Part shown: piece after piece, positions 5,941 through 24,542 of the stretch
Layout: each line of letters begins with the position of its first letter
Position numbering within the stretch: position 1 is the stretch's first letter
Assembly: GCA_902826155.1 (NCBI GenBank)
Contig: CADEDU010000002.1
Span: 104,666-168,665, forward strand
Direction: 5' to 3'
Origin: an uncultured beta proteobacterium
GTDB lineage: Bacteria > Pseudomonadota > Gammaproteobacteria > Burkholderiales > SG8-39
Length of the DNA: 64,000 nt
Program-made: the position numbers and the translations under genes
The notes under the pieces: generated by a model
Told to the model about the DNA's origin: nothing
The model's database searches: none
What the model saw: the letters and a program-made list of their open reading frames with translations, nothing else

Positions 5941-7122
5941 TCAACGCTGTCGATCCGGATCGTCGCGCGCCTTACCCAACTGCGCGAGTTGCGCCGCATA
6001 CGCATCGAGGAACGCGCGACCGAACAACGCATCGAAGTCGTCCTCGGTCTCGCGGTGAATCTCGTCGTACGACTCGGCGAACATATCCCAGAGCTTGGCC
6101 TTGCGTGCCGCGGGAAGAAGCGCGTCCCAGGTGCTGCGCCGGGTCAAGCGCACCTCGAGCTCCTGCGGATCGAAGCGCTTCATCACGGCGTTCAACGCCG
6201 CACGCATGCCGGCAAGTACCGCGATCTGGTGCGCGCGAAGATCGTCGAACGCGTCGCGGAGCGCCGGCACCGGCGCCATGAATCCCGGCGGTGTCGGCCC
6301 GAGCAGATGCGCGAACGCGACTTCAACGCTCGGCGAGAACTTGAGCGGATTGTTGTCGCGGCTCTGGAGCATCGTGCCGTCAGCGTGCAACTCGCGCTTG
6401 GCGATCGTGCGCGCGGCCAGCAGATCGAGCGTGCCTTGCAGGGCCTCACGAAACAGGCTGCCGACCAGCTCCATGTGCTGCGGCCCCAGATTTGCACCGA
6501 CCTGATCGGTCAGGCCGGCTCCTGACAGGAATGCCGCGATCGCCGGATCGACCGGGCGCGCCGCCCTGCGTTCAGTCCGGCGTTCCGTCGGTGCGGTCGC
6601 GCTACGCCCGCGCATGGCCTGCATGCCGGTCGGGTCGCCCACATCGAACTCGACCGATCGAGCATTCGGATCGGCCGGCAGACCAACCGGCGGCGTGCCG
6701 ATCGGCGAATCGAGAAGGCCGCGGAACGCGTTCTGGCTGGCATGAGCGTGCGGCGCCCCGAACGCGGCAAACGGATCGTCATGGCTGGACCGAGTGGGCT
6801 CCGCGCCGAGCGGATAGGCAACCGCAAGCGTATAGGGCCCGATACGCAACGTGGCACCGTCGGTCAATTCCCGCTCGACACCAACAGGCAACGGCTGACC
6901 AGCGATCTCCGTTGCCGCGCCCCCGCCCAGGTGCGTGATGAAAAAACGTCCGCCTCGGCACAACACCGCGGCCTGGCGCCGCGAGATACGGCGCGAAGGG
7001 TCCTCCAGCACCATCGTGCAGTGGACGCCTCGGCCGATATCTCCACCGCCCTCACCGAAGCGGGCGACGATCGGCACCGTTGGCGTGTGGCCGTCGCGGT
7101 CTCTGACGCTGATCTCGATCAT
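5941..7122 (-). CDS. tagH: Type VI secretion-type FHA-domain protein (TagH/ImpI-like)
   Basis: The 393-residue protein has an N-terminal forkhead-associated domain at about 20-105 (DIGRGVHCTMVLEDPSRRIS then RRQAAVLCRGGRFFITHLGG). This fold binds phosphothreonine peptides. A variable Pro/Arg-rich linker follows, and then the C-terminal domain specific to T6SS FHA proteins at about 195-385 (LGPQHMELVGSLFREALQG, DNNPLKFSPSVEVAFAHLLG, FDPQELEVRLTRR, KLWDMFAESYDEIHRETEDDFDALFGRAF, each within that block). In T6SS this class reads kinase-dependent phosphorylation and triggers assembly. It is transcribed away from the fecR-kinase-tssL-tssM operon, with a shared 295-bp intergenic region. Loss of the tail apparatus would leave it as a reader in a signalling module. 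Confidence 0.9.
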   Translation of the reverse strand: MIEISVRDRDGHTPTVPIVARFGEGGGDIGRGVHCTMVLEDPSRRISRRQAAVLCRGGRFFITHLGGGAATEIAGQPLPVGVERELTDGATLRIGPYTLAVAYPLGAEPTRSSHDDPFAAFGAPHAHASQNAFRGLLDSPIGTPPVGLPADPNARSVEFDVGDPTGMQAMRGRSATAPTERRTERRAARPVDPAIAAFLSGAGLTDQVGANLGPQHMELVGSLFREALQGTLDLLAARTIAKRELHADGTMLQSRDNNPLKFSPSVEVAFAHLLGPTPPGFMAPVPALRDAFDDLRAHQIAVLAGMRAALNAVMKRFDPQELEVRLTRRSTWDALLPAARKAKLWDMFAESYDEIHRETEDDFDALFGRAFLDAYAAQLAQLGKARDDPDRQR

Positions 7123-7291
7123 TGCGAAGGGGACGAGCGCGCTGCGGCCAGCAACTGATCATTGCCGATGCGTTTGCGCCGCCAGTCCCGCTCGCGCTTA
7201 TACCACCGCGTCCGCCCTGCGGCCGGTGGGCGCGACACATTCCTTTAATGCAATCGACATAGTCTGTTTGGTTCGCGAGGCGCCTTGAGCG

Positions 7292-7320
7292 TTGACACTT
7301 CAGGACACGCCTCGGATTAT
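7292..7320 (+). promoter_or_regulatory. Sigma-70 promoter for the fecR-kinase-tssLM-tagF-caspase operon
   Basis: A consensus TTGACA (7292-7297) and GATTAT (7315-7320) are spaced exactly 17 bp. A good ribosome binding site, GAGGAGGA at 7402-7409, precedes the ATG at 7418. The 295-bp divergent region 7123-7417 shows nothing else I can name. Confidence 0.7.
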
Positions 7321-7417
7321 TCGGCATGAACCAAATGGCGAACTTGGGCAACAGACTGACGCCTGATGTCCCGTACCACGGCTTCCGCCACCGAACGCTC
7401 GAGGAGGATCGCGTTTC

Positions 7418-8344
7418 ATGCCCCGCACGGCTGCGCTGCTATTGACGCTCGTTGCGCTCAGCCCGTGGGCCTCGTGCGTTGCGCAGGTCTTTGGCACCGT
7501 GACGATCCTCGAAGGTGAAGCACTCGTGCTGCGCGGGCCCGGGCGCGTGCATGCCACCGAAGGTTTGCGAGTGCAGGCTACCGACATCATCGAGATGGGC
7601 GGCAAAGGATTCGCACAGATCGAGTTCGGCGACAAGTCGCGACTTCTGCTCGGCCCCAATGCGCGCGCACTGTTCAACGCATCAAGCGCGCGGCACAAGC
7701 CCGAGCATTCGCTGTATGCGCTGAGCGGCTGGTTCAAGCTCATCGGCTCCGGTCGCGAGCCGCAAGCAAACGTTCCGGGTCTGGAATTGCGCTCGCCACG
7801 ATTCGACATTCCGCCCGCCGCGGCCGACGTGGTGGTGCGAATCAATGCCGACGAGGTCGACGTGTTTTCCGAGCGTGGTGCGACGCGCCTGATCGAGCGC
7901 AGCGGCCAAGCCGTCAGTCAGCCGATCGATATCAAGGCCGGCCAGCACTACTCGCGCAAAGGCAACGAAAAAGCGACGATCCGCACCGGCCCCCAGCAGA
8001 CGTTCGTCGCGGATCTGCCGCGCGCTTTCCGCGACTCGTTGCCCGCGCGGGCCAGCCTGTTCGCCGGCAAAGAGATCGTGGCCAAATCCGCCCCTGATTT
8101 CGGCTATGGTGACGTGGAACCGTGGCTGAAGGCCGACCCGAATGTTCGTCGACCGCTGGTTGCGCGCTGGCGCCACAAATCGCGCGATCCGGCCTTCCGC
8201 GCAGCACTGATCGCCAACATGGCCGCCCACCTGGAGTGGGATCGCATCCTCTTCCCCGAGAAGTACTTACCTAAACCGCCACCTCCGTCGACACCGGCCG
8301 CAGCGTTCGAGCGACCCGGGCGTGCGCCATCCAATCAATACTGA
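7418..8344 (+). CDS. Secreted FecR-domain protein
   Basis: The 308-residue protein has a signal peptide (hydrophobic core LLLTLVALSPWASC, cleavage near CVAQ). A FecR-type beta-rich domain follows at about 24-190 (GTVTILEGEALVLRGPGRVH, then LQVQATDIIEMGGKGFAQIEFGD-like motifs and LRSPRFDIPPAA). FecR domains sit on the outside of the inner membrane and bind partners or signals. The C-terminal 100 residues are basic and Pro-rich with no recognised fold. No TonB-linked sigma system is present nearby, so the FecR role in iron is not implied. It heads the operon that runs into the sensor, kinase and tssLM genes, so it may supply a periplasmic input. Confidence 0.8.
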   Translation: MPRTAALLLTLVALSPWASCVAQVFGTVTILEGEALVLRGPGRVHATEGLRVQATDIIEMGGKGFAQIEFGDKSRLLLGPNARALFNASSARHKPEHSLYALSGWFKLIGSGREPQANVPGLELRSPRFDIPPAAADVVVRINADEVDVFSERGATRLIERSGQAVSQPIDIKAGQHYSRKGNEKATIRTGPQQTFVADLPRAFRDSLPARASLFAGKEIVAKSAPDFGYGDVEPWLKADPNVRRPLVARWRHKSRDPAFRAALIANMAAHLEWDRILFPEKYLPKPPPPSTPAAAFERPGRAPSNQY

Positions 8345-8362
8345 CCCACCAAAGGACGGCCG

Positions 8363-9235
8363 ATGAAATTGCTGCTCAAGTTCAACCTGGTGTTCCTGCT
8401 GATCTTCATCCTCGGCATGGTCGCGGCAGGACAGGTCTCGTGGCGATTGCTCGAGCGCAACGCTCGCGCGGAGATCGCCGAGAACGCCCGCTTGCTGATG
8501 GACGCGGCCCTGGCCGCGCGCGGCTATACCGCCACGCAGATCCAGCCGCTGCTGGAAACACAGATGAAGTACACCTTCCTGCCGCAGTCGGTACCGTCGT
8601 ACTCGGCGCACGAGGTCTTCAATGATCTGCGCAAGAAACATGGCGAGTACAGCTACAAGGAAGCCACGCTCAATCCGACCAATCCGCGCGACCGCGCAGT
8701 CGAGTGGGAAGCCGACATCGTCGGGCAGTTTCGCAACACCAAGGAGACCGCCGAGATCGTCGGCGAACGCGATACCCCGACCGGCAAATCGTTCTACGTG
8801 GCCCGGCCGATCCGGATCACGAACCCGGCGTGCCTGGTCTGCCACAGCACGGTCGACGCGGCGCCCAAAACGATGGTCGAGCGCTACGGCCCGGCGAACG
8901 GCTTTGGCTGGCAGCTCAACGAAGTGGTTGGCGCGCAGATCATCTCGGTTCCGACCAACGTGCCGCTGTCACGCGCGGCCAGTGCGTTCAACGTGTTCAT
9001 GACTTCGCTTGGCGGCGTGCTGCTGGCGATCGGCGTGATCCTCAATTTCATGCTGTGGTGGATGGTGATCCGCCCGGTCACCCAACTGGCGAAATTCGCC
9101 GACAAGGTGAGCCTGGGCGAACTCGAAACTCCGGAGTTCAGCCGCAAGGCCAAGGACGAAATCGGCGGGCTCGGGCAAGCGATCAACCGCATGCGAACGA
9201 GTCTGGTGCAGGCGATGCGAATGCTGGAGACTTGA
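8363..9235 (+). CDS. Tll0287-like (DUF3365) heme-motif sensor with HAMP domain
   Basis: The 290-residue protein has a first transmembrane helix (about 5-25), a periplasmic Tll0287-like domain with a CxxCH heme-c motif (Cys157, Cys160, His161 in ACLVCHST), a second helix (about 215-238, GGVLLAIGVILNFMLWWMV) and a HAMP linker at about 240-288 that ends the protein. Domains of this type are heme-binding periplasmic sensors. There is no kinase, cyclase or receptor output, so any signal must pass to a separate protein. The Ser/Thr kinase gene follows 112 bp later, and fecR lies 18 bp upstream. Confidence 0.85.
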   Translation: MKLLLKFNLVFLLIFILGMVAAGQVSWRLLERNARAEIAENARLLMDAALAARGYTATQIQPLLETQMKYTFLPQSVPSYSAHEVFNDLRKKHGEYSYKEATLNPTNPRDRAVEWEADIVGQFRNTKETAEIVGERDTPTGKSFYVARPIRITNPACLVCHSTVDAAPKTMVERYGPANGFGWQLNEVVGAQIISVPTNVPLSRAASAFNVFMTSLGGVLLAIGVILNFMLWWMVIRPVTQLAKFADKVSLGELETPEFSRKAKDEIGGLGQAINRMRTSLVQAMRMLET

Positions 9236-9347
9236 TCGGCGCCCGATCCTGACAAACATTCCTTCGAATCGAGGCTGACGCGGAGTCATCTGCGTCGGCC
9301 TCTTGCGCGTACATTCACCCTGCAGCGGCACCCATAGCGAACCGGCA

Positions 9348-10787
9348 ATGAACGTCCCTGAACGCCTCGGCAAGTATCCGATCACCGGCATCCTCGGCCG
9401 GGGCGCCATGGGCGTGGTCTATCGCGGCTTCGATCCGGTGATCAAACGGCAGGTGGCCATCAAGACCATCCGACGCGAGCTGATCGAGGACGACGACAAG
9501 GCACAGATGGTCGCCGCCCGCTTCCGCAAGGAAGCACAGGCAGCCGGCGCGCTCAATCATCCGGGCATCGTGTCGGTGTACGAGTACGGCGAGGACGATC
9601 AGTACGCCTACATCGCGATGGAGTGCGTGGAAGGCAACAGCCTGCGCGAGTACTTCACCCGGCAGACCCCGTTCGAGGAACGCGACGTCGTCTCATTGAT
9701 GTCGCAGTTGCTCGACGCGCTCGAGTTCGCGCACAACCACTCGGTGTGGCATCGCGACGTGAAGCCGGCCAACGTGATCATCATGGGCAACGGCCGGATC
9801 AAGCTCGCTGATTTCGGCATCGCCCGCATCGATACCCTGGATCGCACGCAGACCAGCGTGGTGATGGGTACGCCAGGCTACATCGCGCCGGAGTACTACC
9901 TCGGTCGGGCGATCGATCATCGCGTCGACATCTTCTCGGCCGGCGTGTTGTTCTATCACTTGCTCGCGGGGCAGGCTCCGTTCAAGGGCACCGCCGAAGC
10001 GATCATGCATAGCGTCTGCTACTACGATCCGGAGCCGCCATCGTGCATGTCCACGGCGCGCTGCCATTCGCGTTTCGACGGTGTGGTCGCGCGTGCGTTG
10101 ATGAAGCGAGCCGAAGACCGCTTCCCAAGCGCCGGGGCATTTCGCGCGGCGATCCTCTCGCAATACGATCAGCCGGTAAGTGAGTCGGTCTCGGAGGCGA
10201 CGATCATTGCCGATCGGCCGCGTTCCGGCGCCGTGGCTGCGGAGCCGTCGCAGTTGACCGCACGCAGCCAGCCCAATGCCGCGCCGACCACCGCACCGAG
10301 CGTGGTTTCGACTGCGCCGCCCACGGGCTGGGATGCCGCCGTGCTGGCGCGCATCGAACGCGAACTCACGAAGTACGTCGGGCCGGTCGCGCGCGTGCTC
10401 GTGCGCAGGGCCGCCCGCGATCACGCCACCGTGGTGGCACTGACGACCACGCTGGCCGAATCGCTCGCGAACTCGAAGGATCGCGACGCGTTCCTGACCG
10501 TGGTCAACGGACCCGGAACACCCACCCCGACCCCACGCACTATCGAGCCCTCCGGTACGCGCTCGGGGGGCACGTCCGCGCCCGGCAACAGCCGTGACCC
10601 GATTTCGCAGGACGACCTCGACCGCGCCACGCGCGCCTTGACCAAATCGATGGGGCCGATCGCCAAGGTGCTGGTCAAGCGAACCGCCGCCGAAGGACTG
10701 GGACGACGCGACTTCCTCAACCGCTTGGCCCAGCACGTGCCTTCCGAATCCGATCGGACGCGCTTCCTTCGTGAAGCGGGGCTGTAA
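9348..10787 (+). CDS. Serine/threonine protein kinase (PpkA/PknB-type catalytic domain)
   Basis: The 479-residue protein has a complete Hanks-type kinase domain at about 8-275: glycine loop GRGAMG (17-22), catalytic Lys39 (VAIKTI), HRDVKPANV (135-143), DFGIARI (155-161) and APEYYLG. A linker follows, then two copies of a repeat of about 59 residues at 10329-10506 and 10608-10784 (ELTKYVGPVARVLVRRAA and ALTKSMGPIAKVLVKRTA). There is no transmembrane segment, unlike many PpkA proteins. It lies between the sensor gene and tssL. In T6SS the equivalent kinase phosphorylates a Thr in TssL that the FHA protein then binds. ATG 9348 is chosen because it begins at the kinase fold; the frame opens at 9303. 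Confidence 0.93.
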   Translation: MNVPERLGKYPITGILGRGAMGVVYRGFDPVIKRQVAIKTIRRELIEDDDKAQMVAARFRKEAQAAGALNHPGIVSVYEYGEDDQYAYIAMECVEGNSLREYFTRQTPFEERDVVSLMSQLLDALEFAHNHSVWHRDVKPANVIIMGNGRIKLADFGIARIDTLDRTQTSVVMGTPGYIAPEYYLGRAIDHRVDIFSAGVLFYHLLAGQAPFKGTAEAIMHSVCYYDPEPPSCMSTARCHSRFDGVVARALMKRAEDRFPSAGAFRAAILSQYDQPVSESVSEATIIADRPRSGAVAAEPSQLTARSQPNAAPTTAPSVVSTAPPTGWDAAVLARIERELTKYVGPVARVLVRRAARDHATVVALTTTLAESLANSKDRDAFLTVVNGPGTPTPTPRTIEPSGTRSGGTSAPGNSRDPISQDDLDRATRALTKSMGPIAKVLVKRTAAEGLGRRDFLNRLAQHVPSESDRTRFLREAGL

Positions 10788-10829
10788 CGCCATCTATCGC
10801 AGAGCCATCATCGATCAGGAACCGGGGTA

Positions 10830-12176
10830 ATGACCGACGACGATCGCACCGTCGCGCCGATTCCGGATCCCGACGCCACGATCGTCACTCCGCAAGGCAC
10901 AGGCGGAGCCGACGAGGATGCGACCCTTCCCGCGTTCGCACCGCCGCGCACCGCCACGCCGGCACCGCGGGCCGCGGAACCGACCGAGTTTGCCGAACTC
11001 GGTACAGCCGGCCTCAATCCGCTGGTGGGCGCAGCCAATCCGATTCTCAACGTGGTGCATGCGCTGCGCAGCACACCGGTGCAGACGGCCCCGCCCATGA
11101 TGCAGGCGCATCTGCTCGAGGCGATCGAGGCATTCGAACAACGCGCGCGCGCCAAGGACATTCCGCGACACAAGGTCATCGCCGCGCGTTTCGTACTGTG
11201 CGCGCTGCTGGACGAAATCATTGCCGGCACGCCCTGGGGCAGCCCTCCCGCCTGGAGCGAACCGCGCCTGCTGCAACAGCTCTACGGTGAAGAGCGCGGC
11301 GGCCATCGGGTGTTCGAACTGCTCGCACGCCTGGGTGAAGATCCTCCTGCGAACAGCGATCTGCTCGAGCTGTTCCACGTGTGCCTGGCCCTCGGTCTCG
11401 AGGGCCGCTATCGCGACGTCCCGAACGGACGGCCGCAGCTCGAGGCCGTCACTCAACGCGTATTCGAACTCGTCCGTGCGACCAGGCGCGATGGCGCCAC
11501 GCCATCGGGTGCGCGCGTGCTCGCCGATCATTGGCAAGGCATGAGCGTACCGCCGCAGCGCATTGTGTCCGTCGTGCCGCTATGGGCGGTGCTCGCGCTG
11601 GGCCTGGCGAGCGTGCTGGCGATCTACCTGTTGCTGAACCGGCAACTCGCCGCCACCGCGGCACCGCTGTTCAAGCAAGTCCACGCGATCGCCGCACAGG
11701 TCGCCCCACTGCCCGCCGCGCAATCGCAGCGAGAAGTGTCGAGGCTACGAGCCGCGTTCACCGAAGCTGCGCAGGCCGGCTTGCTCGATCTTCGCGAGGA
11801 CGCACAGCGATCCGTGCTCGCGCTGGCGACCGACGTTCTGTTCGTTCCGGGCACCACGCAATTGCAGCCCGACGTCAAACCGCTGCTGGACAAGATCGCC
11901 GGCGCGCTCGGTCCGCGCTCCGGTCAGATCCTGGTCGTCGGCCATAGCGACAATGCGCCGATCAACACGGTGCGGTTTCCTTCGAACTGGCATCTGTCGC
12001 GCGACCGTGCCGCGGCTGTTGCCAAAGCGCTGGAACAGGCCGGGCTTGCGAGCCAACGCATGCGAGTGGAAGGGCGCGGCGACGTCGAGCCGGTCGCCGC
12101 CAACGACGCACCCGATGGCCGAGCGCGCAATCGGCGGGTGGAAGTTCAACTCGTGCTGCCGCGGCCGGAGCGCTGA
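10830..12176 (+). CDS. tssL: TssL (DotU/IcmH) with C-terminal OmpA domain
   Basis: The 448-residue protein begins with an acidic Thr-rich tail containing three D-x-T-(V/I/L) motifs (Thr7, Thr17, Thr32). The DotU domain follows at about 65-235 (LNPLVGAANPILNVVHAL, LCALLDEIIAGTPWG). One transmembrane helix is at about 245-268 (PLWAVLALGLASVLAIYLLL), and an OmpA-like peptidoglycan-binding domain at about 335-448 (VVGHSDNAPINTVRFPSNW, RVEGRGDVEPV). It is the extended TssL type that anchors the T6SS membrane complex to peptidoglycan. It is 42 bp after the kinase and 6 bp before tssM. The Thr tail is a plausible kinase target. Confidence 0.93.
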   Translation: MTDDDRTVAPIPDPDATIVTPQGTGGADEDATLPAFAPPRTATPAPRAAEPTEFAELGTAGLNPLVGAANPILNVVHALRSTPVQTAPPMMQAHLLEAIEAFEQRARAKDIPRHKVIAARFVLCALLDEIIAGTPWGSPPAWSEPRLLQQLYGEERGGHRVFELLARLGEDPPANSDLLELFHVCLALGLEGRYRDVPNGRPQLEAVTQRVFELVRATRRDGATPSGARVLADHWQGMSVPPQRIVSVVPLWAVLALGLASVLAIYLLLNRQLAATAAPLFKQVHAIAAQVAPLPAAQSQREVSRLRAAFTEAAQAGLLDLREDAQRSVLALATDVLFVPGTTQLQPDVKPLLDKIAGALGPRSGQILVVGHSDNAPINTVRFPSNWHLSRDRAAAVAKALEQAGLASQRMRVEGRGDVEPVAANDAPDGRARNRRVEVQLVLPRPER

Positions 12177-12182
12177 TTCGCG

Positions 12183-15100
12183 ATGAGCACCGTTCGCATG
12201 CACGGTTGGGTACGCATTGCAGCGATCCTGCTCGGGCTGCTGGCGCTGGCGTGGACGATCTGGAGCGCCGGCCCAGGCCTTGCCCTGGGTGATGCGCGCC
12301 CCCTCGAGTCGCCGGCCGGCCGATGGGGTGCGATTGCGGCCGTGGCAGCGATGGTTGCTGCGGCATGGTCGTGGCGATTGCTGCGCGCCCGCCGCCGCGA
12401 CAGTGCGCTCATCGACGGCATCAGCGCCGGCGAGCGTGAAGCGCAGGTGCTGGATGCACGCTTCGCGGAGGCGCTCGGCGCACTGAAGCGGCACGGCCCA
12501 GCGATCGGCAATCGCGGCGGCCAGCGATCGCTCTACGATCTGCCGTGGTACGTGATCATCGGTGCGCCGGGTTCGGGCAAGACCACTGCATTGTTGAACG
12601 CCGGGCTGGAGTTCCCGCTCGCCGGAAAATTCGGGCCGGGCGCCCTGCGCGGCGTGGGAGGAACGCGCAACTGCGACTGGTGGTTCACCAGCGAAGCGGT
12701 GCTGATCGACACGGCCGGTCGCTACACCACGCACGAATCGGATCGCGCCGCCGACAGCACGGCCTGGTCGGCGTTCCTGTCATTGCTCGCCAGACACCGC
12801 CCGCAACGCCCGATCAACGGCCTGCTACTGGCCATCAGCACGACAGATCTCATTCAAGCGAGTACAGCCGAACGCGCGCAGCACGCTGCGCGGCTGCGCG
12901 CACGAATCGCGGAAGTGCACGCGACGCTGCAGACGCGCATCCCGGTCTACGTGCTGATCACGAAAGTCGATCTGCTTGCCGGGTTCATCGAATTCTTCGG
13001 CGATTTCGACAAGGACGAGCGCGCTCAAGTCTGGGGCGTGACCTTTCCCGGAACCGAACAGGCCTCCACGGCGGGGTTGCTGGCGACGCTGCCGACGGAA
13101 TTGTCGCTGCTCGGCGCGCGACTCGATCGGACGCTCCTCGATCGTTTGCACGACGATCGCGATCTCGGCCGGCGCGCCGCGCTGTATCGCTTTCCGCAGC
13201 AATGGCATGGCTTGAAGGAACTGCTCACGCCGTTTCTGCAGCAGGTGTTCGCATCGACCGACCACGCCCACACGCTGTTGCGCGGCGTGTATTTCACCAG
13301 CGGCACGCAGGAAGGCACACCGATCGATCGCGCATTGGGAGGTTTGGCGCGCGCCCTCGGGTTGGCCAGTCGCATCGTGGCGCCAAATCGGTCGAGCGGC
13401 CGCAGCTACTTCCTGACCCAGTTGCTGCGCGGCGTGGTGTTCGCCGAAGCCGAAGTCGCCGGAATCAATCAGCGCTGGCAGCAGCGTCGCGCGCTGCTGC
13501 AATGGAGCGCCGTAGGCGGTACGGTTGCGGCGGCCGCTCTGGCCGTGGTTGCGCTGTGGTGGCAGAGCAGCAAAGCCGAGTCCGCGATGCGCACCTGGGG
13601 GCAGCAACTGGAGCGGATCGACGCCCAAGTGGCAACCGTGCGTTCCGCGAATCCCGGCGACGTCACCGTGCTGCTGCCGCTGCTGCAATCGGTGCACGCG
13701 CTTGCGACCGGCGCACCGTCCGAGTCGTGGACATTCGGCCTGGACCACAGCGCGAGTCTTGCCGCTGCTGCCGATGCGAGCTACTACCAGCTTCTCCGTC
13801 AGGCATTGGTGCCAGGCATCGCCGCCGGACTCGAACAGCGCATGCGAAGCGCACCGCCAGAGCGCGTAGCAATGCTCTATGAAGCATTGAAGGCGTACGT
13901 GATGCTCTTCGCTGGTCGCAACTTCGATCGCGATTCGCTGCGAGGGTATCTGCTTGCCGAATGGGAGAGTTCACCAGCACCTGGTGCCGATGCCAAGGCC
14001 GGTGCCGATGCCGAACGACGCAACGCGTTCGCGCTTCATCTGGAGAAACTGCTCCAGACGGGAGAAGTAGGCGCCCCCAGCGCCGCTGACGCCGACCTCC
14101 TGACCCTGGTGCGACAGCGTGTCGCCGCCACGCCATTGCCCGCGCTGATCTACAACCGACTCGCTCATATCGACTCGCGTCAGGATGTCGCGGCCTTCGA
14201 CCTCGCGCGAGCGGCCGGTCCGCAGGCGACCGGTGTGATCGAAGCAGCTCCCGGCGCGACTGCGCTCGCCGTCGTGCCAGGTGCGTTCACGCTCGCGGGC
14301 TATCAGAAACTCGTTCATGAACGCGCGCCCACGCTCACCAGGCAGTTCGCCGAGGAGCGCGCCTGGGTGATAGGCACGAGCGAGGCTGCCGCGGCACCGG
14401 CTGTCGATTCACTCGCCGAGGCCGTTCAAGCGCTGTATCTGAGCGACCATGCCGCCGCCTGGAGCGCATCGCTCAACGGCGTGCGATTGGTACGAGCAAG
14501 CTCATTGAGCGCCAGTGCGCAACTCGCCGGCGCATTGGCTCGCCCGGACTCGCCACTGGTAGCCCTGCTCACGTCGATCGCCCGCGAGCTCACGTTCGGC
14601 GAACGCGCGCAATCGCGCCTTGGCGCCCCACTTCAGGCGTTGCACAGGTTCGCCTCGCAGCGCCCCGGGCAGCTCGACGAATTGCTCGCCATGCTGGGCA
14701 AGCTCGCACCGCAACTGGCCGCTTTTGAGGACGCGATCAAGCGCAATGTCGGTGGCGTGCCCCCGAGCCTGGGCGAACTCGCGGCCCTGCTCCCGCAACT
14801 GCCCGAGCCGGTGCGAACGTGGATGCAGCAATTGCATGCCGACGCCGCCACGCATCTCGCTGGCCTGCAACGCGAGGCGCTGTCGCAGCACGTCCGTCGC
14901 GAGGTGCTGCCGATCTGTACACAGTCGATCGCCGGCCGCTATCCCCTGGTCCGCGCCAGCCGCGAGGAGGTATCCCGGCAAGATTTCGTGCGCATGTTCG
15001 GCGCCAACGGCGTGCTCGACGCGGCATTCCGCCGGCATCTGGCGAACTGGGTCGACACGCGAACGCAACCCTGGAGCTATCGCGGCAGCGACGACACGCG

Positions 15101-15569
15101 CGGCGAATCCACCGATTCGCTACGCCAGTTCCAGCGTGCCCGCATCGTGCGTGATGCGTATTTCCGCGATGACGGCAAAGTGCTGGGCACTTCGTTGCAA
15201 TGGCGGCTGATCGAACTGGACGCAGGCATCCGCCAGTTCACGGTGGAAATCGACGGCCAGGGGCTCCGATTCGCGCCCGACACGAAAGCGCCGGCGGGAA
15301 TACTGTGGCCAGGCCCAGACGGCGACGCGGGCGTGCGCGTGCAGGTGCAAGGCGCCGCTGGGTCACCATCAACGTTCGCGTTCTCCGGCGCGTGGGGGCT
15401 GCTGCGACTGCTCGATCGTGCACGCGTGGAAGTGGTCGATTCGAACCGGATCATCGCGATGTTCGACGTCGAAGGACGACGCGCCCGGTTCGAGATTGCA
15501 AGCCGCAGCGGTCCGAACCCGCTGCGACTGAGTGCGCTCGAGCAGTTCGAATGCCCTCAGCGCCGATGA
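12183..15569 (+). CDS. tssM: TssM (IcmF) inner-membrane ATPase-like protein
   Basis: The 1128-residue protein has the TssM layout: two N-terminal transmembrane helices (about 11-33 and 47-68), a cytoplasmic nucleotide-binding domain with Walker A GAPGSGKT (127-134) and DTAGRY, a third helix at about 437-460 (LLQWSAVGGTVAAAALAVVA), and a large periplasmic region with the TssM C-terminal beta domain (RIVRDAYFRDDGKVLGTSLQ, VQVQGAAG). It forms the T6SS trans-envelope complex with TssL and TssJ. No tssJ lipoprotein gene is seen here. Its stop overlaps the tagF start (ATGA), so the two are translationally coupled. Confidence 0.94.
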   Translation: MSTVRMHGWVRIAAILLGLLALAWTIWSAGPGLALGDARPLESPAGRWGAIAAVAAMVAAAWSWRLLRARRRDSALIDGISAGEREAQVLDARFAEALGALKRHGPAIGNRGGQRSLYDLPWYVIIGAPGSGKTTALLNAGLEFPLAGKFGPGALRGVGGTRNCDWWFTSEAVLIDTAGRYTTHESDRAADSTAWSAFLSLLARHRPQRPINGLLLAISTTDLIQASTAERAQHAARLRARIAEVHATLQTRIPVYVLITKVDLLAGFIEFFGDFDKDERAQVWGVTFPGTEQASTAGLLATLPTELSLLGARLDRTLLDRLHDDRDLGRRAALYRFPQQWHGLKELLTPFLQQVFASTDHAHTLLRGVYFTSGTQEGTPIDRALGGLARALGLASRIVAPNRSSGRSYFLTQLLRGVVFAEAEVAGINQRWQQRRALLQWSAVGGTVAAAALAVVALWWQSSKAESAMRTWGQQLERIDAQVATVRSANPGDVTVLLPLLQSVHALATGAPSESWTFGLDHSASLAAAADASYYQLLRQALVPGIAAGLEQRMRSAPPERVAMLYEALKAYVMLFAGRNFDRDSLRGYLLAEWESSPAPGADAKAGADAERRNAFALHLEKLLQTGEVGAPSAADADLLTLVRQRVAATPLPALIYNRLAHIDSRQDVAAFDLARAAGPQATGVIEAAPGATALAVVPGAFTLAGYQKLVHERAPTLTRQFAEERAWVIGTSEAAAAPAVDSLAEAVQALYLSDHAAAWSASLNGVRLVRASSLSASAQLAGALARPDSPLVALLTSIARELTFGERAQSRLGAPLQALHRFASQRPGQLDELLAMLGKLAPQLAAFEDAIKRNVGGVPPSLGELAALLPQLPEPVRTWMQQLHADAATHLAGLQREALSQHVRREVLPICTQSIAGRYPLVRASREEVSRQDFVRMFGANGVLDAAFRRHLANWVDTRTQPWSYRGSDDTRGESTDSLRQFQRARIVRDAYFRDDGKVLGTSLQWRLIELDAGIRQFTVEIDGQGLRFAPDTKAPAGILWPGPDGDAGVRVQVQGAAGSPSTFAFSGAWGLLRLLDRARVEVVDSNRIIAMFDVEGRRARFEIASRSGPNPLRLSALEQFECPQRR

Positions 15570-16156
15570 GATCAACCACTCGTGCAGGCACCGCTGCCCC
15601 GGGCTGGTATGGCAAGTTGCCCAGCCTGGGCGATTTCGCGCACCGGCGCCTGAGCGCGCGATTCATCGCTCAGTGGGACGAGTGGCTGCAGACGTGTCTT
15701 GCCGCAACCCTGGCTGAAGCGCAGGATAGCGAGCAAGCGATGCCGATCCAGCCTCTTCGCTTCTGGCTGGCGCCGCAACTGTGCGACGGGCAATCGATGT
15801 GCGGCATCATCGTCGCGAGCCTTGACCGCGTCGGGCGCAGGTTTCCACTCACGATGGCCGCCGCGACCGATTGCACACCACCCGATGACGTCGCCGATCA
15901 CCCCTGGTTCGAGCAGACCGAGTCGACCGTGCTCAATGCCATTGACCTGCGCATGACCGTGGACGAGTTCGAGGCGGCCCTGGCGGGTCTGCCACCATTG
16001 GCTTGGGCGCCGACACAAAGTGCCCGCCGCGGCAGCGTTGGTTCGCTATGGTGGTCAGTGCCCACACACGCAGCCGCGTCTTCGGTTGCGCGCGCATTTC
16101 CAGCCCTTCCGCCGGTCGAGGCAGGCGCGGCGCTGTTTGGAGCCGGGCTTCGATGA
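15566..16156 (+). CDS. tagF: TagF-family T6SS-associated protein
   Basis: The 196-residue product carries the TagF signature near its start (PGWYGKLPSLGDFAHRRL) and continues with FIAQWDEWLQTCL, then LRFWLAPQLCDGQSMCGIIVASLDRVGRRFPL, a diagnostic family block. TagF proteins act on the post-translational (threonine phosphorylation) control of T6SS, usually with the FHA protein. ATG 15566 overlaps the tssM stop as ATGA; ATG 15551 is an in-frame alternative. Its own stop (16154-16156) overlaps the start of the next caspase-fold gene. Confidence 0.9.
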   Translation: MRSTTRAGTAAPGWYGKLPSLGDFAHRRLSARFIAQWDEWLQTCLAATLAEAQDSEQAMPIQPLRFWLAPQLCDGQSMCGIIVASLDRVGRRFPLTMAAATDCTPPDDVADHPWFEQTESTVLNAIDLRMTVDEFEAALAGLPPLAWAPTQSARRGSVGSLWWSVPTHAAASSVARAFPALPPVEAGAALFGAGLR

Positions 16157-17733
16157 GGATGGCGTCACTGCGTGGCGACGGATGGTGCCTGCGCGGCACG
16201 ATCCTCCTTGCGTTCGCGCTCAATTTTGCCGCCGGCATTCAGGGCGCGCAGGCGCAGGGCACGGCGCCAACTGAGCGCCGGGTCGCGCTGGTGGTGGGCA
16301 ACGCCACGTACAAGTCCGATCCGCTGGACAACCCGGTCAACGACGCGCGGCTGGTCGCCAAATCGCTTGGCGCGGCCGGATTTCAAGTGACGCTTCGCGA
16401 GAACCTCGATCGGCGCGGACTGTTCGAAGCGATGCGCGCGTTCGGCAATCAGTTGAACGAAGACACCGTCGCGCTCTTCTACTACGCGGGCCACGGGCTG
16501 CAGTTGCGCGATCGCAACTACCTGGTGCCGATCGATGCCGAGATCCAAACCGAAGACGAGATCCCGGTCTCGGCGCTCGACGTCGGATTCATTCTCGATC
16601 GCATGGCGAGCGCACGTAGCCGGGTCAACATCGTCATTCTGGATGCATGTCGCAACAACCCGTTCGCCGGCCGGCCGAAGAGCGGCACGCAGGGCCTGGC
16701 GCAGATGGACGCACCGGTCGGCACGCTGCTCGCGTTCGCCACAGCGCCCGGCAAGCTCGCCGCCGATGGTCAAGGCAGCAACGGCTGGTATGCAACGCAC
16801 CTTGCCCAGCAGCTGCTGGTGCCCGGCGTGCCGATCGAGATCATGTTCCGTCGTGTGCGCGAAGGCGTCGTGAAAGACAGTCGCGAACAGCAGATTCCCT
16901 GGGAGAGTTCGTCGCTGCGTGGCGACTTCGCTTTCATACCCGGCAACATACCGCTCGCTACGCCACGCGAACCGGTTGATCCCAACGCCGCCGACGTTGC
17001 GTTCTGGGAGAGCATCAAGGGGAGCAACAATCAGGCGGAATATCGTGCGTATCTCGCTCAGTTTCCTCAAGGCAGGTTTGCGGCGCTCGCGCAGGCTCGA
17101 ATCGACGCGCTCGCCGCGGTCTTACCGCGACCCGGCTCGCAATCGCCCTCAGTTGCGCCCTCGGTTGCGCGAGCGGAGCTGCTGCCGCGCACTGGCGATA
17201 CCTGGCGCTACAAGGTGCAGGATCGATTCCGGCTAGGCGACCTGTTCGTTACCGCGAAGGTTGAAGAGATCAGGCCCGAGGGTGTGGCCGAGTCGTGGAC
17301 AGCATCGTCGAACCCCAATGCGCGGGGCACCGGCGTGGTGGCGCTGTCGCCCCGAATGCACGCCATGCCAGGCTGGGATCTCACGCCGCCGGAGTTCGCG
17401 CCGTATCTGCAGGCGCATGAGTCGCTGCGTGCGGGCCAGACGTTGGGGCCGCTTAGCCGGCGAGTGGGCAGTGCCGACATCGCGCTGGTTGCGCGGGTCG
17501 AGGGAGAGGAAGAGGTCATCACCCCGGCCGGCCGCTTCGTCGCGACCAAAGTGGCGGTTCGCAATCGCGAACCGGCCGCCCGCGGCAATCCGCGCGCCCC
17601 GTCGGTCGAATACACGATCTGGTACGCCGCCGCGACCAAGCGACCGGTGAAGGCGATGGTGGTGACCCGCGCCGGCAGCACGGTGCAGGAAGAGACGGTG
17701 CTGGAATTGGTGGAGTTCAGGCTGGGACCATAG
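16153..17733 (+). CDS. Secreted caspase-fold (peptidase C14) protein, copy 2, with C-terminal extension
   Basis: ATG 16153 overlaps the tagF stop (ATGA), so the gene is translationally coupled to the T6SS-like operon. The 526-residue product has a signal peptide (GTILLAFALNFAAGIQGAQA) and a caspase p20 domain at about 40-285 with His114 (FYYAGHG) and Cys166 (ILDACRNNPFAG). A helical linker follows at about 290-330 (VAFWESIKGSNNQAEYRAYL), and a C-terminal domain of about 170 residues beginning TGDTWRYKVQDRF, which looks like a beta-rich DUF3108-like fold but is not assigned. Its similarity to the copy at 1673 is high in the p20 part (NATYK, NPVNDA, VTLREN). A protease so placed may act on envelope proteins or serve as an effector. 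Confidence 0.88.
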   Translation: MRMASLRGDGWCLRGTILLAFALNFAAGIQGAQAQGTAPTERRVALVVGNATYKSDPLDNPVNDARLVAKSLGAAGFQVTLRENLDRRGLFEAMRAFGNQLNEDTVALFYYAGHGLQLRDRNYLVPIDAEIQTEDEIPVSALDVGFILDRMASARSRVNIVILDACRNNPFAGRPKSGTQGLAQMDAPVGTLLAFATAPGKLAADGQGSNGWYATHLAQQLLVPGVPIEIMFRRVREGVVKDSREQQIPWESSSLRGDFAFIPGNIPLATPREPVDPNAADVAFWESIKGSNNQAEYRAYLAQFPQGRFAALAQARIDALAAVLPRPGSQSPSVAPSVARAELLPRTGDTWRYKVQDRFRLGDLFVTAKVEEIRPEGVAESWTASSNPNARGTGVVALSPRMHAMPGWDLTPPEFAPYLQAHESLRAGQTLGPLSRRVGSADIALVARVEGEEEVITPAGRFVATKVAVRNREPAARGNPRAPSVEYTIWYAAATKRPVKAMVVTRAGSTVQEETVLELVEFRLGP

Positions 17734-17907: not shown

Positions 17908-18558
17908 TTGTTCCGCCGAATCGCCCTCAGCGCCCTCACCGCCGCCACTCTGGCCACGTTCGCACACGCCCAGTCCGGTGACGTGCTTCAGTATCGTGAT
18001 TCCGACCGCGTGGATCCGCGCGACGTCGCGCGCATCCTGGGCGCGCCCCAGCAGCCGGAGATGAAGATGCGTTCGATCCGGCTGAAGGAACAACCGGCCC
18101 CGGCGGTTGCCACCGAGGCCCCAGCGCCGGCAGTCGCCGCGCCGGCACCGGTTGCTCCAAGCCGGCCGCATCGTTATGCCGCTCGTGCGACCGAGACGCG
18201 TACCGACGCGGCGATCGGCCAGCCAAGCGCGCTCTCCGTGCCGGTGAAATTCGCGTTCGATTCGGCGACGATCCTGCAGCAGGCGCGCCCGCAACTCGAT
18301 GCGATCGCCGAAGGCATCCGCATGCTGCCCGATGGCCACTCGGTCACGATCGAGGGTCATACCGACGCCGCGGGCCCCGACGCGTACAACCAACACCTGT
18401 CCGAGCGGCGTGCGCAAGCCGTCAAGCAGTACCTGATCTCGGTCCACCAGATCGACGCCGCTCGCCTCAAGACGCGCGGCTATGGCGAAACCCAGCCGCT
18501 GCACGAGGTCGATCCCCACTCGCCCGATAACCGGCGCGTTCAATTCCGCGGCGGGTAA
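17908..18558 (+). CDS. OmpA-family periplasmic protein
   Basis: The 216-residue product starts at TTG 17908, supported by AGGAGA at 17897-17902. It has a signal peptide (MFRRIALSALTAATLATFAHA), a Pro/Ala linker, and a C-terminal OmpA-like peptidoglycan-binding domain at about 100-215 (VKFAFDSATILQQARPQL, TIEGHTDAAGPDAYN, LSERRAQAVKQYLI). The domain binds meso-diaminopimelate in peptidoglycan. It is separated from the caspase gene by a hairpin and by 174 bp, so it may have its own promoter. An excellent terminator follows. Confidence 0.86.
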   Translation: MFRRIALSALTAATLATFAHAQSGDVLQYRDSDRVDPRDVARILGAPQQPEMKMRSIRLKEQPAPAVATEAPAPAVAAPAPVAPSRPHRYAARATETRTDAAIGQPSALSVPVKFAFDSATILQQARPQLDAIAEGIRMLPDGHSVTIEGHTDAAGPDAYNQHLSERRAQAVKQYLISVHQIDAARLKTRGYGETQPLHEVDPHSPDNRRVQFRGG

Positions 18559-19083: not shown

Positions 19084-20565
19084 TCAGCAATCGCTGACTT
19101 TGAACTCCACCCGACGGTCCAGCGCGTCGCGGCGATCGTCGGTCCCCAGACCGGAGAGGTTCTCGCGCGAGCCCACGCCTGCCGCCCCGAGTTTCTTGCG
19201 CAGAACGACCGAGTCGGTCTCCAATCGCTGCTTCACGTACTGGGCGCGCATCAGCGACAGGCGTTCGTTTAGCGGCTCCGGCCCGGTACGGCTCGTGTGA
19301 CCGACGATATTGATGCACGCGGTTCGCTGAGAGGCGCGGGTGGCAATCTGCTTGAGCCACATGTGGTACGCGCCGCTGATCTGCGGATCGGTAACGAACA
19401 AGGTCGAGCCCGGCCGGAACAAGAACATCACCGAGAGCTGATTGTGGGCCAAGCCGAAATCGACGATCCGTTGAAACGCCTGAGTCGCCTCGTCGATGCG
19501 CTTGAGCTTCCAGGCAGACAGGTACGTGCCGTTGTGCACGCGCAGTTGATCGCCTTCTTTGGTGCGCATCACGCCGCGGTAAAGGTCGAGTGCGTCTTCG
19601 TAACGACCCTCGACGTAGGCGTTCATCGCGTCGTTGATCAATGCCGCGGTGACGATCTTGTCCCAGTACGCCGGGTTGATCGGCTCGCCCGATTTGGTGC
19701 CCTGGCAGGTGCGCACGTAACCTTGCGTGGCCGGATCGGGCGCCCACGCCGGGCTATCCAGGAAGAACGCCGTGGGAGTGTGATCGACCCCCTCCATCGA
19801 TGCCCGCGCGAACCCTTTCGACACGATCTTGCCTGATCGCACATCGAGAAGGGCCAAGCACACGCGATACCAGTCACGCGCACCGGCGTTCTTGCCGTCC
19901 TTGTCCACCGCCGTGAACGTACCGATGAACAGCAGCGGTCCGCGCGCGAGCGAAGCAGTATTGAACGGCAGCAGTTCGTAGCGCGGGAAGTCGGACTTGA
20001 CCATGCTTTCGATGCGCTGACCCATGGCTTCCGTCGCCAGAGTGCGAACGCCCGTATTGCCGTCGATCAACGGGTCGATGGCCAAAGGCAGTCTCGCAGC
20101 ACTCTCACCCGGCGGTAGCTGCGCGTTGTTGAACAGATTCTTTGCCGCGAACTGCAGTGCTTGCTCGAACGGCATGATCGGTGGCAGACCAGCGGCAGGC
20201 TTCGGCGCCGCTGCAACCGCAGGCGGCTTCGATGCCGGCGCAGGCGCCGCTGGAGCCGGCGTCGGCGCGGCCACAACCGCAGGAGCGGAAACCGTCGGCG
20301 CGGGTTGCACGATCACCGGGGAAGGCGCCGGTACGGGCTTGGTCACTACCGGCGTTGGTGCCTCCTTGGGTTCCACGACTCGAGGCGTTTGAGCCGCTGG
20401 TTGCTGCGCGGAAGGCGGTGCGGTGGTGGATTTCTGCGGCGATGGTGCAGATGTGCCGGTGCACCCGATCAACCAGGCGGCCGTGCAAGCACCGACCGCC
20501 AAAGCAGACCAGCGCCAGGACCGGCGCGACGAGGACAAGCGTTCGCGAGTAGGCATCAGCGGCAC
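19084..20565 (-). CDS. OmpA-domain lipoprotein coupled to a caspase-fold gene
   Basis: The 493-residue product has a lipobox (WLIGC, Cys35), then a long Pro/Ala/Val linker (about 38-130) that could span the periplasm. A central domain of about 240 residues follows (FEQALQFAAKNLFNNAQLPP, MVKSDFPRYELLPFNTASL, YEDALDLYRGVMRT), and a C-terminal OmpA-like domain at about 400-493 (NIVGHTSRTGPEPLNERLSL). The central part contains a TPR-like segment and is reminiscent of CsgG-type fold proteins but is not assigned. Its ATG overlaps the end of the upstream caspase-fold gene by 10 bp, so the two are translationally coupled on the minus strand. It is probably outer-membrane anchored and peptidoglycan binding. 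Confidence 0.82.
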   Translation of the reverse strand: MPLMPTRERLSSSRRSWRWSALAVGACTAAWLIGCTGTSAPSPQKSTTAPPSAQQPAAQTPRVVEPKEAPTPVVTKPVPAPSPVIVQPAPTVSAPAVVAAPTPAPAAPAPASKPPAVAAAPKPAAGLPPIMPFEQALQFAAKNLFNNAQLPPGESAARLPLAIDPLIDGNTGVRTLATEAMGQRIESMVKSDFPRYELLPFNTASLARGPLLFIGTFTAVDKDGKNAGARDWYRVCLALLDVRSGKIVSKGFARASMEGVDHTPTAFFLDSPAWAPDPATQGYVRTCQGTKSGEPINPAYWDKIVTAALINDAMNAYVEGRYEDALDLYRGVMRTKEGDQLRVHNGTYLSAWKLKRIDEATQAFQRIVDFGLAHNQLSVMFLFRPGSTLFVTDPQISGAYHMWLKQIATRASQRTACINIVGHTSRTGPEPLNERLSLMRAQYVKQRLETDSVVLRKKLGAAGVGSRENLSGLGTDDRRDALDRRVEFKVSDC

Positions 20566-21869
20566 TCCTCTTTGAGGAACTTCATGTCACTGGGAAGCAT
20601 TGGTTCACCCAGTGACGCTCGAATCAACAATGCATTGCAGCGTTCCGATCGATTGCCCGAGTTACTGGCGACCACGCGTGGCGGCGCTGCAGGTTCCGAT
20701 GTGGCGGGCCGACGCGGCGGCACCGGCAGCGCGATTGGCGGCTCTGGCTTCGCCTGTTCCGGCGGCGGACGAGTCACCACGGGCGGCTCCTTCTGCTGCC
20801 GTTCGGCGGGTCGAGTCGGCGCGGTCGGACTCTGCTCCGAGCGAGGCGGCAAAGCCTCCGGCGGCTTGGCTCCCGTTGTCGCGGATGGCAACACCGGTCG
20901 CTTCTCTTTCTCCAATTGGGCTTCGCGTTCGTCCAGTCGCTTTTCGCGCGCCTGCTGATCGCGCTCGCGCGCCTGTTGCTCGCGTTCTCGCTCGGCAAGC
21001 CGCGCGAGCAATGTTTGTATCTCCTGTTGCTTCGCCTGCTCTTCCACGCTCAGTCCGCGGCGCGGATTGAAGCTGAAGTCGGCCGTCATCGACGAGTTGA
21101 CCCACGGCATCTGCCTGCCCTCGGTTTGACGCAACACGTTGAGGCGAACCTGTTTGAACATCTGCTCGACTTCCAATCCTTCAATCAGCATTTCCTTGAC
21201 GAGATTGCGCGTGTAGACGCTGTTCGAATCCGGAGGACCGTCTTCGGCGGCGGCGCCAGGCGCGGACGAATAGGCGATCAACGCGCCGCGAGCACTGAGT
21301 TCCGCAAGCCCGCCGATCGGTTTGATATTTCTGGTCTTGCCGCGAAACGGATTGTCGCGACAGGCATCCAGGATGATGATCCGCACCTGCGCGCGTGCCC
21401 GCTCGATGCGACTGACGTAGGCCTCGTCGACATCGACCGATTCGTCCTTGATTTCTTCTTCGTCGCGCAGATTGATGTCGACCGGGAGCAGGTAGTTGCG
21501 ACCGTCGATCTGCACACCGTGTCCGGCGTAGTAGAGAACCGCGACACCATCCTCTTCCTGGGTGCGCCGCGCGAACTCGCGCAACACACGACGAAAGTCG
21601 CGCACGCCGAGATTGACGTGTTCGGCCACCTCGAAGCCGAGTTTGCGCAGCGTCGAGGCCACGACGCGAGCATCGTTCTCAGGATTGTTCAGCGGGATGC
21701 TCGCGTAGCGCGCGTTGCCGATCACCATCGCCATTCGCTTCATCGCCCAGGCGTCGGTTACGGGCAGGCCCACCGCGATCAGGACGAGCGCGCACGACCA
21801 CACTCGGACACGACTCTTCGAGCCGTACCAGAGCCATCCCCATTTGCGCAGGAGTCCGATCCCGATCAT
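20556..21869 (-). CDS. Secreted caspase-fold (peptidase C14) protein, copy 3, with coiled-coil and Pro-rich tail
   Basis: The 437-residue product has a signal/anchor segment (VWSCALVLIAVGLPVTDAWA) and a caspase p20 domain at about 44-290 with His117 (VLYYAGHGVQ) and Cys170 (IILDACRDNPFRG). A strongly charged coiled coil follows at about 300-345 (LLARLAEREREQQARERDQQ and on), then a Pro-rich stretch, and a C-terminal motif with Cys residues (RCNALLIRASLGEP, KFLKEECR). Related C-terminal motifs occur in other betaproteobacterial caspase-fold proteins. The start is ATG 21869; the longer frame to 22037 lacks a signal peptide at its start, and neither has a strong Shine-Dalgarno. It overlaps the OmpA lipoprotein gene by 10 bp. 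Confidence 0.87.
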   Translation of the reverse strand: MIGIGLLRKWGWLWYGSKSRVRVWSCALVLIAVGLPVTDAWAMKRMAMVIGNARYASIPLNNPENDARVVASTLRKLGFEVAEHVNLGVRDFRRVLREFARRTQEEDGVAVLYYAGHGVQIDGRNYLLPVDINLRDEEEIKDESVDVDEAYVSRIERARAQVRIIILDACRDNPFRGKTRNIKPIGGLAELSARGALIAYSSAPGAAAEDGPPDSNSVYTRNLVKEMLIEGLEVEQMFKQVRLNVLRQTEGRQMPWVNSSMTADFSFNPRRGLSVEEQAKQQEIQTLLARLAEREREQQARERDQQAREKRLDEREAQLEKEKRPVLPSATTGAKPPEALPPRSEQSPTAPTRPAERQQKEPPVVTRPPPEQAKPEPPIALPVPPRRPATSEPAAPPRVVASNSGNRSERCNALLIRASLGEPMLPSDMKFLKEECR

Positions 21870-22106
21870 GTCCCTCAAGCACGGCTGCGTTCGGGCAGCG
21901 GAGGACGCACTGCAGTGATGTGCAGCAGCCTCGGCCTCGTAAAGAAATGCCTGCATGCCACCGCCCGTCCGCAGGATTCTACCTTCGGCCGGGGCACGAT
22001 TGCATGGATCGGATGGTCTACACTCGCCGGCCGTCATCTCACCGGCGAGTCGAACCGAATTTTACAAGTGCTCGCGCTGCACCAGCGTGCGCCGGCCCCC
22101 CACACC

Positions 22107-24043: not shown

Positions 24044-24402
24044 AGCGCGGTCCTCCTTGCAAGATTGCTCAGCAGTGGAGCCTCGGCGGGGAGCGCCGGT
24101 CTGGTTTGACGGTCTGATCCGCGAGTTGCCACGTTACGTACGTCGCGGACCGAACGGCGCGGGCTTGACCCGGATCAGACGCGGGTACAGCCGTTCATCG
24201 AAGTCGGGATTATGACGGGGCGCAATCTCAGCGCTACACCGTTCGGCGGCATCCAGGGACCGCCTGATGCGACGTTACATTGACGGAATAATTCTTTTAG
24301 ATCAGAGAGTTAGTAAAAGCTCGCTGCGCGTGGCGCCTCGTTGGCGCGCTTGACCAGATGGCACGATCCTGCAACGCAAAACTGGGAATTGGTGCAGACA
24401 AG
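24044..24402. other. Gene-free stretch upstream of the lytic transglycosylase
   Basis: No supported gene. GCATC/GATGC near 24250-24270 and GCGCG/CGCGC near 24325-24352 are small inverted repeats. The lytic transglycosylase promoter should lie here on the minus strand, but I cannot place it. Confidence 0.5.
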
Positions 24403-24540: not shown

Positions 24541-24542
24541 GC

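Follow-up and report, generated by a model that had tools for sequence, protein, structure and literature searches.

A window of 64,000 nucleotides from an uncultured beta proteobacterium of the Burkholderiales (contig CADEDU010000002.1; "the window" is this whole stretch) carries a locus in which a type VI secretion system (T6SS) is represented by its membrane base and its phosphorylation switch, beside genes for caspase-fold proteins of family C14 and with no tail gene detected. From comparative sequence analysis we conclude that the locus encodes a conserved, tail-independent complex derived from the T6SS base. In the reading that we favor, at a probability of roughly 0.6, it would form a trans-envelope complex composed of a TssL-OmpA/TssM base and a kinase/TagH/TagF switch, with no contractile tail and with a caspase as its output. 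The gene set, the active-site residues, the coupling of the genes, the kinship with T6SS and, in relatives, the independence from tails can be read from the sequences compared.

A preliminary description of the window had listed a TagH-type FHA protein, FecR, a CxxCH sensor, a Ser/Thr kinase, TssL-OmpA, TssM, TagF and a C14 caspase, and profile scans found all of them present in open frames. The set stood as listed, although its extent had to be widened, as the genes for a sigma-70 factor, an anti-sigma factor and a further caspase (caspase 1) at 400-2512 and for a small OmpA-domain protein (OmpA1) at 17908-18558 recur with it. The caspase of the block itself (caspase 2) begins at about 16159, which corrects the previously given start at 16003.

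Recurrence of the Locus and the Search for Tail Genes

A search for relatives of the window TssM recovered the full gene set in Ideonella sp. (L007) and in Azohydromonas lata (L008), with L001 holding the TssM half. TssM alone was dropped as a marker because ordinary TssM proteins score nearly as well, and profiles of FecR and caspase 2 separate the groups better. The FecR profile was searched over 399 genomes drawn from the family of A. lata, five first-look candidates being scored per genome, and gave matches in 51 genomes at 1e-10, 13 of them strong (<1e-100). The locus recurs in 13 of the 399 genomes sampled. TagH, FecR and the Tll0287-type sensor occur together in all 13, and TssM, TagF and caspase 2 are adjacent in all 13, with the two halves of the locus on a single contig in eight and on two contigs in five. 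The genes for sigma-70, anti-sigma and OmpA1 lie near the locus in nine of the 13 genomes, eight of which also have caspase 1 (in G260 the stretch ends before it). The 38 genomes with weaker matches encode FecR-like proteins, mostly accompanied by a Tll0287 protein and a kinase, without the locus-type TssL and TssM; among them, the FecR-like protein adjoins ordinary T6SS genes in L167-L169, L182 and L195. When the search was made at the level of the order, eight of 399 genomes matched at 1e-50, only A. lata (G008) belonging to the strong group, and G786 (3e-90) and G756 (5e-85) have the trio of FecR, heme-Cache sensor and kinase, the locus being absent in the stretches examined.

As the preliminary description had noted, the window shows no tail gene: ten T6SS proteins of A. 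lata, searched by tblastn at 1e-4, gave no match, including none for TssJ, sheath, TssK or Hcp, and scanning the majority of the predicted genes with profiles gave none either, in a search that passed over several short open reading frames, left VgrG out of the tblastn step and included one profile scan at 1e-20. Among the A. lata seeds, TssC, TssK, Hcp, TssJ and TssM were confirmed by profiles, and TssB, TssE, TssF, TssG, ClpV, TssA and TagF (contig C75) are named from gene order and appearance, not from profiles. The same seeds detected no tail gene at 35 bits in any of the 20 locus stretches taken from relatives; L221-L227 show none either. At 40 bits, a tail gene was found in 70 of 80 TssM loci, the ten without one comprising three examples of this locus, five short contigs, and L058 and L061. 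The last two, from Rugamonas, carry TssL, TssM and TagH; these seeds detected no tail gene in the surrounding 23 kb, and the two loci may represent a divergent T6SS or another orphan.

At the level of whole genomes, matches to TssM (PF06744) exceed matches to TssC by exactly one in each of the 13 genomes with the locus. The counts of TssC and TssM are two and three in G001, G067, G182 and G081, one and two in G008 and G211, and zero and one in G007, G260, G213, G406, G118, G346 and G132. In the other 38 FecR-positive genomes, the difference of TssM minus TssC is 0 (23 genomes), -1 (13) or -2 (2), and never +1, all matches above the cut-off being counted, weak TssC included. The same seven of 13 genomes in which no TssC was found also gave no TssK, Hcp or TssJ, TssB not having been searched genome-wide. 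As a rough guide to completeness, matches to GTP_EFTU (fragments included) number 14, 13, 12, 12, 8, 13 and 12 in the seven tail-less genomes, compared with a range of 11-16 among the six that have tails. TssC was detected in 138 of the 399 genomes, namely in 6/13 with the locus and 132/386 without it (Fisher p 0.39); because it is no commoner with the locus than without, the locus is not tied to tails.

Descent and Coupling of TssL and TssM

The window TssL (10830-12176, + strand) is of the long form, with DotU (PF09850, 7.8e-57) and OmpA (1.1e-18) domains and a score above the cut-off of TIGR03350, and the TssM that follows it (12183-15569, +) has intact Walker A and B motifs and matches PF14331, PF06761 and PF06744. 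By profiles and trees alike, both are membrane subunits of the T6SS type. TssM reaches 1005 bits on the T6SS model TIGR03348 and 166.7 bits on the IcmF_IVB model, whose curated cut-off is 1000. TssL passes the DotU model of type IVB (NF038228, 126.6 bits, cut-off 50) as well as the T6SS models TIGR03349 and TIGR03350. In a midpoint-rooted tree of 88 TssM proteins, the ten locus TssM complete enough to be used form one clade (Shimodaira-Hasegawa-like approximate likelihood-ratio test, SH-aLRT, 100) among ordinary T6SS TssM, the window protein being its deepest branch; the clade persists after this long branch is removed. The TssL proteins of the locus likewise form one clade (SH-aLRT 100) among normal T6SS TssL. 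Both trees are quick ones that rely on a single measure of support, and they came with long-branch warnings and with an unusual residue composition in several rows. Because the locus clade sits among ordinary T6SS TssM, its tail would have been lost or left behind.

The N-terminal tail of the window TssL contains three sites at which a threonine is preceded within three residues by an acidic residue and followed by V, L, I, M, F or R. At least two such sites, which are candidate positions for phosphorylation and FHA binding, are present in all 11 loci compared (up to nine), versus 4 of 66 ordinary TssL proteins, a further six of the 72 having been omitted where no tail boundary was found (p = 5e-8, a guide only, as the rows are related).

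Downstream of tssM lie tagF, encoding a TagF N-domain (15566-16156, +; PF09867, 1.5e-33; TIGR03373 above cut-off), and caspase 2 (16159-17733, +). The spacings from TssL to TssM, TagF and caspase 2 are 6, -4 and 2 bases (tssM and tagF overlapping by 4 bases), and because these gaps are so small, caspase 2 probably shares one operon with TssL-TssM-TagF. In relatives, tagF and caspase 2 overlap in six of the eight junctions measured. Start sites and junction gaps depend on the codon-bias gene picker used for this high-GC DNA. Although the TssM proteins of the locus in relatives are only 41-48% identical to that of the window, the gene set is unchanged, and the ratio of nonsynonymous to synonymous substitution rates (dN/dS) ranges over 0.08-0.63 among the orthologous pairs for which it was calculated, the caspase 1 rows L008/L148, L008/L150 and L001/L155 being left out as they compared caspase 2.

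The Caspases

A search that scored three first-look candidates in each genome detected full-length caspase 2 (>780 bits) in 12 of the 13 genomes that have the locus. None of the 386 other genomes yielded it, their highest match being 376 bits. In G118, the remaining genome with the locus, the gene is cut by the end of the contig. The protein (Peptidase_C14, 4.7e-38) has a paracaspase-like domain, for which MALT1 is the best profile match in the Protein Data Bank, and a C-terminal beta domain that is modeled with good confidence and resembles YmcC-type lipoproteins, GfcB being a related name for the fold. Only the match of this C-terminal domain was used from the model, because the caspase core is of low confidence (mean predicted local distance difference test score, pLDDT, 69). 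Caspase 1 (1673-2512, +; Peptidase_C14, 1.9e-37) is probably exported and contains the catalytic residues in YAGHS and DACR. The catalytic His-Cys pair is kept in all aligned sequences of both caspases that cover it; both are candidate proteases. The identity rows L001, L148, L150, L153, L155 and L157 for caspase 1 and L151 for caspase 2 are paralogues and were excluded.

Judged by eye, the N-termini of both caspases, of the FecR-like protein and of OmpA1 resemble export signals, and caspase 2 has a probable signal peptide. Of the window proteins, the FecR-like protein and caspase 1 pass a hydropathy cut-off that caspase 2 and OmpA1 fail; in L007, L008 and L155, caspase 2 passes it.

Additional genes stand beside caspase 2 in some loci, encoding DUF4384/peptidoglycan-binding and DUF2807 proteins (L008:15892-19610; L155, L157, L202, L222, L224 and L226). 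A third C14 caspase is encoded in the window at 20556-22037 (- strand), and Variovorax paradoxus ISL-3 (L032) has a 64%-identical relative next to an ordinary T6SS. Most prokaryotic caspases are not known to have a defined role.

The Phosphorylation Side and Neighboring Genes

Upstream of the base genes lie the components that would deliver its input. TagH (5941-7122, - strand) combines an FHA domain (PF00498, 1.4e-8) with T6SS_FHA_C (PF20232, 6e-58; TIGR03354, 244 bits, above cut-off) and retains the GR and S of the phosphothreonine site. The FecR-like protein (7418-8344, +), probably exported and with a conserved C-terminal region, is by itself weak on the Pfam FecR model (E 0.13); PF04773 is matched by 10 of 13 aligned homologues (best 5e-7), the window protein being among the three misses, and its model (pLDDT 79) matches FecR and PupR folds, with a Foldseek value of 4e-7 to the FecR domain of PupR. 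The heme-Cache (Tll0287/DUF3365) protein (8363-9235, +; PF11845, 6.7e-42; HAMP, 5e-9) has transmembrane regions flanking its sensor domain on both ends, a HAMP domain and no output domain. Its heme motif of the CXXCH type, CLVCH in the window, is kept as CLxCH in all 13 aligned sequences that cover it. By analogy with a HAMP-bearing Tll0287 protein of P. azotoformans, which is reported in a preprint to bind nitric oxide (NO) (PMC12889525), the window protein may sense NO, redox or envelope state.

The cytoplasmic kinase (9348-10787, +; Pkinase, 1.3e-52) has intact VAIK, HRD and DFG motifs and, by hydropathy, no transmembrane region. With TagH and TagF it completes the components expected of T6SS threonine phosphorylation. 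Its C-terminus shows, by eye, two copies of a similar stretch without a Pfam match. In several genomes the FecR, heme-Cache and kinase trio adjoins ordinary T6SS genes (L051, L074, L215, L218 and L219), which suggests an NO- or redox-linked T6SS input in the Burkholderiales.

At the edges of the set, the window encodes a sigma-70 factor of the extracytoplasmic function type (400-978, +; Pfam Sigma70_r4_2/r2), an anti-sigma factor (991-1647, +) with a zf-HC2-like N-terminus (E 5e-4, narrowly below cut-off) and, by hydropathy, a single transmembrane region, and the probably exported OmpA1 (17908-18558, +; PF00691, 3.3e-21). Another OmpA-domain protein is encoded at 19084-20565 (-), with 40-42% identical relatives that adjoin T6SS genes in Polaromonas (L013) and G327 (L195). 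The scanned genes between 23 and 64 kb are mostly housekeeping genes (ribonucleotide reductase, AmpD, Obg, ProB, LeuA, IlvC/B/H, LptF/G and others). The G+C content falls to 0.56 at 24001-26000, other 2-kb blocks lying at 0.60-0.67.

Proposed Mechanism

A phosphorylation-gated periplasmic caspase output is the likely function of the locus, judging by gene content, conserved residues and gene coupling. The periplasmic heme-Cache/HAMP protein, perhaps together with FecR, would sense NO, redox or envelope state and activate the cytoplasmic kinase, which in turn would phosphorylate the multi-site threonine tail of TssL. TagH would bind the phosphorylated sites and TagF would oppose this step. TssM would then change conformation using its NTPase and relay the change to the periplasm, where the peptidoglycan-anchored complex might activate, position or release the caspase-fold protease of the same operon. 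The sigma/anti-sigma pair, with the second caspase and OmpA, may set expression. The early links are proposed because homologous components behave in this way in Agrobacterium and P. azotoformans: in Agrobacterium, PpkA phosphorylates TssL at Thr14, Fha binds the site and TssM changes shape (PMC3953482). The link to the caspase is drawn from gene coupling (the overlap in six of eight relatives), adjacency and co-occurrence. The nature of the signal, the direction of signaling and the caspase as output are what we infer in this scheme.

Several points weigh against such a complex. The support is comparative throughout, and contact between TssM and caspase 2 is only putative. The whole-genome tail tests were made on the relatives and not on the window's own genome; the genomes of the tail-less relatives are broken into several to many contigs, which means that a tail may have been missed in any one of them, and G118 is probably incomplete because it has only eight GTP_EFTU matches. 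Misses are also possible in the profile searches, which scored the best five (FecR) or three (caspase 2) candidates per genome. The sigma-70 block was not seen in four of 13 genomes, three of them with short contigs and the fourth, G001, without the block for about 7 kb to each side. At two of the eight junctions, tagF and caspase 2 are separated, by 67 (L007) and 23 bases (L149), and the contrast in TssL tails counts related sequences. In TagH of the window and of L157 the usual FHA histidine is replaced by Q, and none of the window's scanned genes was identified as encoding a PP2C (PppA-like) protein.

Alternative Explanations

Two other functions for an intact complex have to be weighed. 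An unlikely one is a device for defense or programmed death, in which the peptidoglycan-anchored complex would detect phage or damage to the envelope and set off the caspases, much as in Zorya or caspase-based abortive infection. The locus does combine caspases and a kinase with a MotB/ZorB-like OmpA domain, and PADLOC returns ZorB (8e-20) for TssL, a caspase (1e-10) and PD-T4-6 models for the kinase; however, these matches look generic to the folds concerned, the caspases look exported by hydropathy and by eye, and the other scanned genes of the window are mostly housekeeping. No more probable is a non-proteolytic regulator, in which the caspase-fold proteins would serve as scaffolds or maturation factors, with TssL, TssM and the kinase regulating the state of the envelope or of polysaccharide. 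The lipoprotein-like fold at the end of caspase 2 would suit this, as would FecR, OmpA and the DUF4384/peptidoglycan-binding neighbors in some relatives, but the His-Cys pair is retained wherever the alignments of either caspase cover it.

A split T6SS, in which the locus lends its membrane complex to a tail cluster elsewhere in the genome, is very improbable. T6SS parts do separate in A. lata, where one contig holds TssJ, TssK, a short TssL and TssB to ClpV, and the second TssM lies on another contig beside genes resembling TagF and TssA; the window's own genome also stands outside the genome-wide search. Yet seven relatives have no detected TssC, TssK, Hcp or TssJ, and all six relatives with tails have TssM in excess by one. 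In G211 the locus lies on a 6.65-Mb contig in a genome with one TssC and two TssM, and G001 has one tail contig with its own TssM, plus a separate TssK-TssL-TssM-TagF contig. The preliminary description had named a tail cluster without its own TssL or TssM as the result that would overturn a repurposed complex; none was seen, and the two tailed genomes that were read in part (A. lata and G001) have other TssM genes. Least probable is a decaying remnant left after tail loss, which the nesting of the locus among ordinary T6SS TssM would allow and against which stand open frames, kept active sites (CLxCH, VAIK/HRD/DFG, the TssM Walker motifs and the caspase His and Cys), dN/dS below 1 in the orthologous pairs, a gene set constant across divergent TssM, a caspase whose full-length form turned up only in genomes with the locus, and multi-site threonine tails. 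The split and remnant readings were both judged unlikely in view of the tail-less relatives, the TssM excess and the intact conserved genes.

The trans-envelope complex with a caspase output remains our preferred reading. The repurposing that the preliminary description gave as one of two alternatives is supported by the relatives as regards the base, whereas its phosphorylation switch and protease output are ones that we infer. More tentatively, the locus might be an envelope signaling system of a new kind, using a weaponless T6SS base as a kinase/FHA switch, possibly NO-sensing, that activates periplasmic caspase-like proteases. It is assembled from known parts, and there is a fair chance that its function may prove to be of a new kind; among the open-license papers listed, several of the lists being the top of longer ones, which were considered by title or the start of the abstract and cover part of the literature, we found no account of such a locus.

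Comparison With Known Systems

TssM and TssL are commonly read as markers of a secretion system. Because they persist without a detected tail gene in seven of the 13 genomes, T6SS surveys that count TssM may be misled. The locus allows the T6SS base and its phosphorylation switch to be studied apart from the tail, separated by evolution, and it provides a link between a defined trans-envelope machine and a prokaryotic caspase. The presence of a T6SS base and switch beside caspase genes, without the harpoon, suggests conversion of the base into a trans-envelope signaling device.

With the T6SS membrane complex (TssJLM with long-form TssL), the locus shares a DotU-OmpA TssL and a TssM that fall within the T6SS trees, and it differs in having no detected TssJ, baseplate, sheath, tube or ClpV, a lack extending in the seven tail-less relatives to TssC, TssK, Hcp and TssJ genome-wide. 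Its kinase, TagH, TagF and acidic-threonine TssL tail resemble the PpkA/Fha/TagF pathway (TssL Thr14 in Agrobacterium; PMC3953482), from which it departs in its multi-site tail, in the heme-Cache and FecR genes beside the kinase, in that no PP2C was found in the window, and in having no Hcp to recruit. A precedent for such proteins outside T6SS is given by IcmF/DotU of the type IVB (Dot/Icm) system (PMC2660368); the locus TssM, however, fits the T6SS model much more closely (1005 vs. 167 bits), and the scans of the window named no Dot/Icm gene. With prokaryotic C14 caspases of the paracaspase/orthocaspase type, caspase 2 has in common the C14 domain, the His-Cys pair and the MALT1 profile match, and it is set apart by its probable export signal, its YmcC/GfcB-like C-terminal domain and its fixed linkage to TagF and TssM. 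Finally, the trio of FecR, heme-Cache protein and kinase occurs elsewhere as the same three genes, alone or beside an ordinary T6SS, whereas here it is linked to a TssL/TssM operon that has caspases and lacks a tail.

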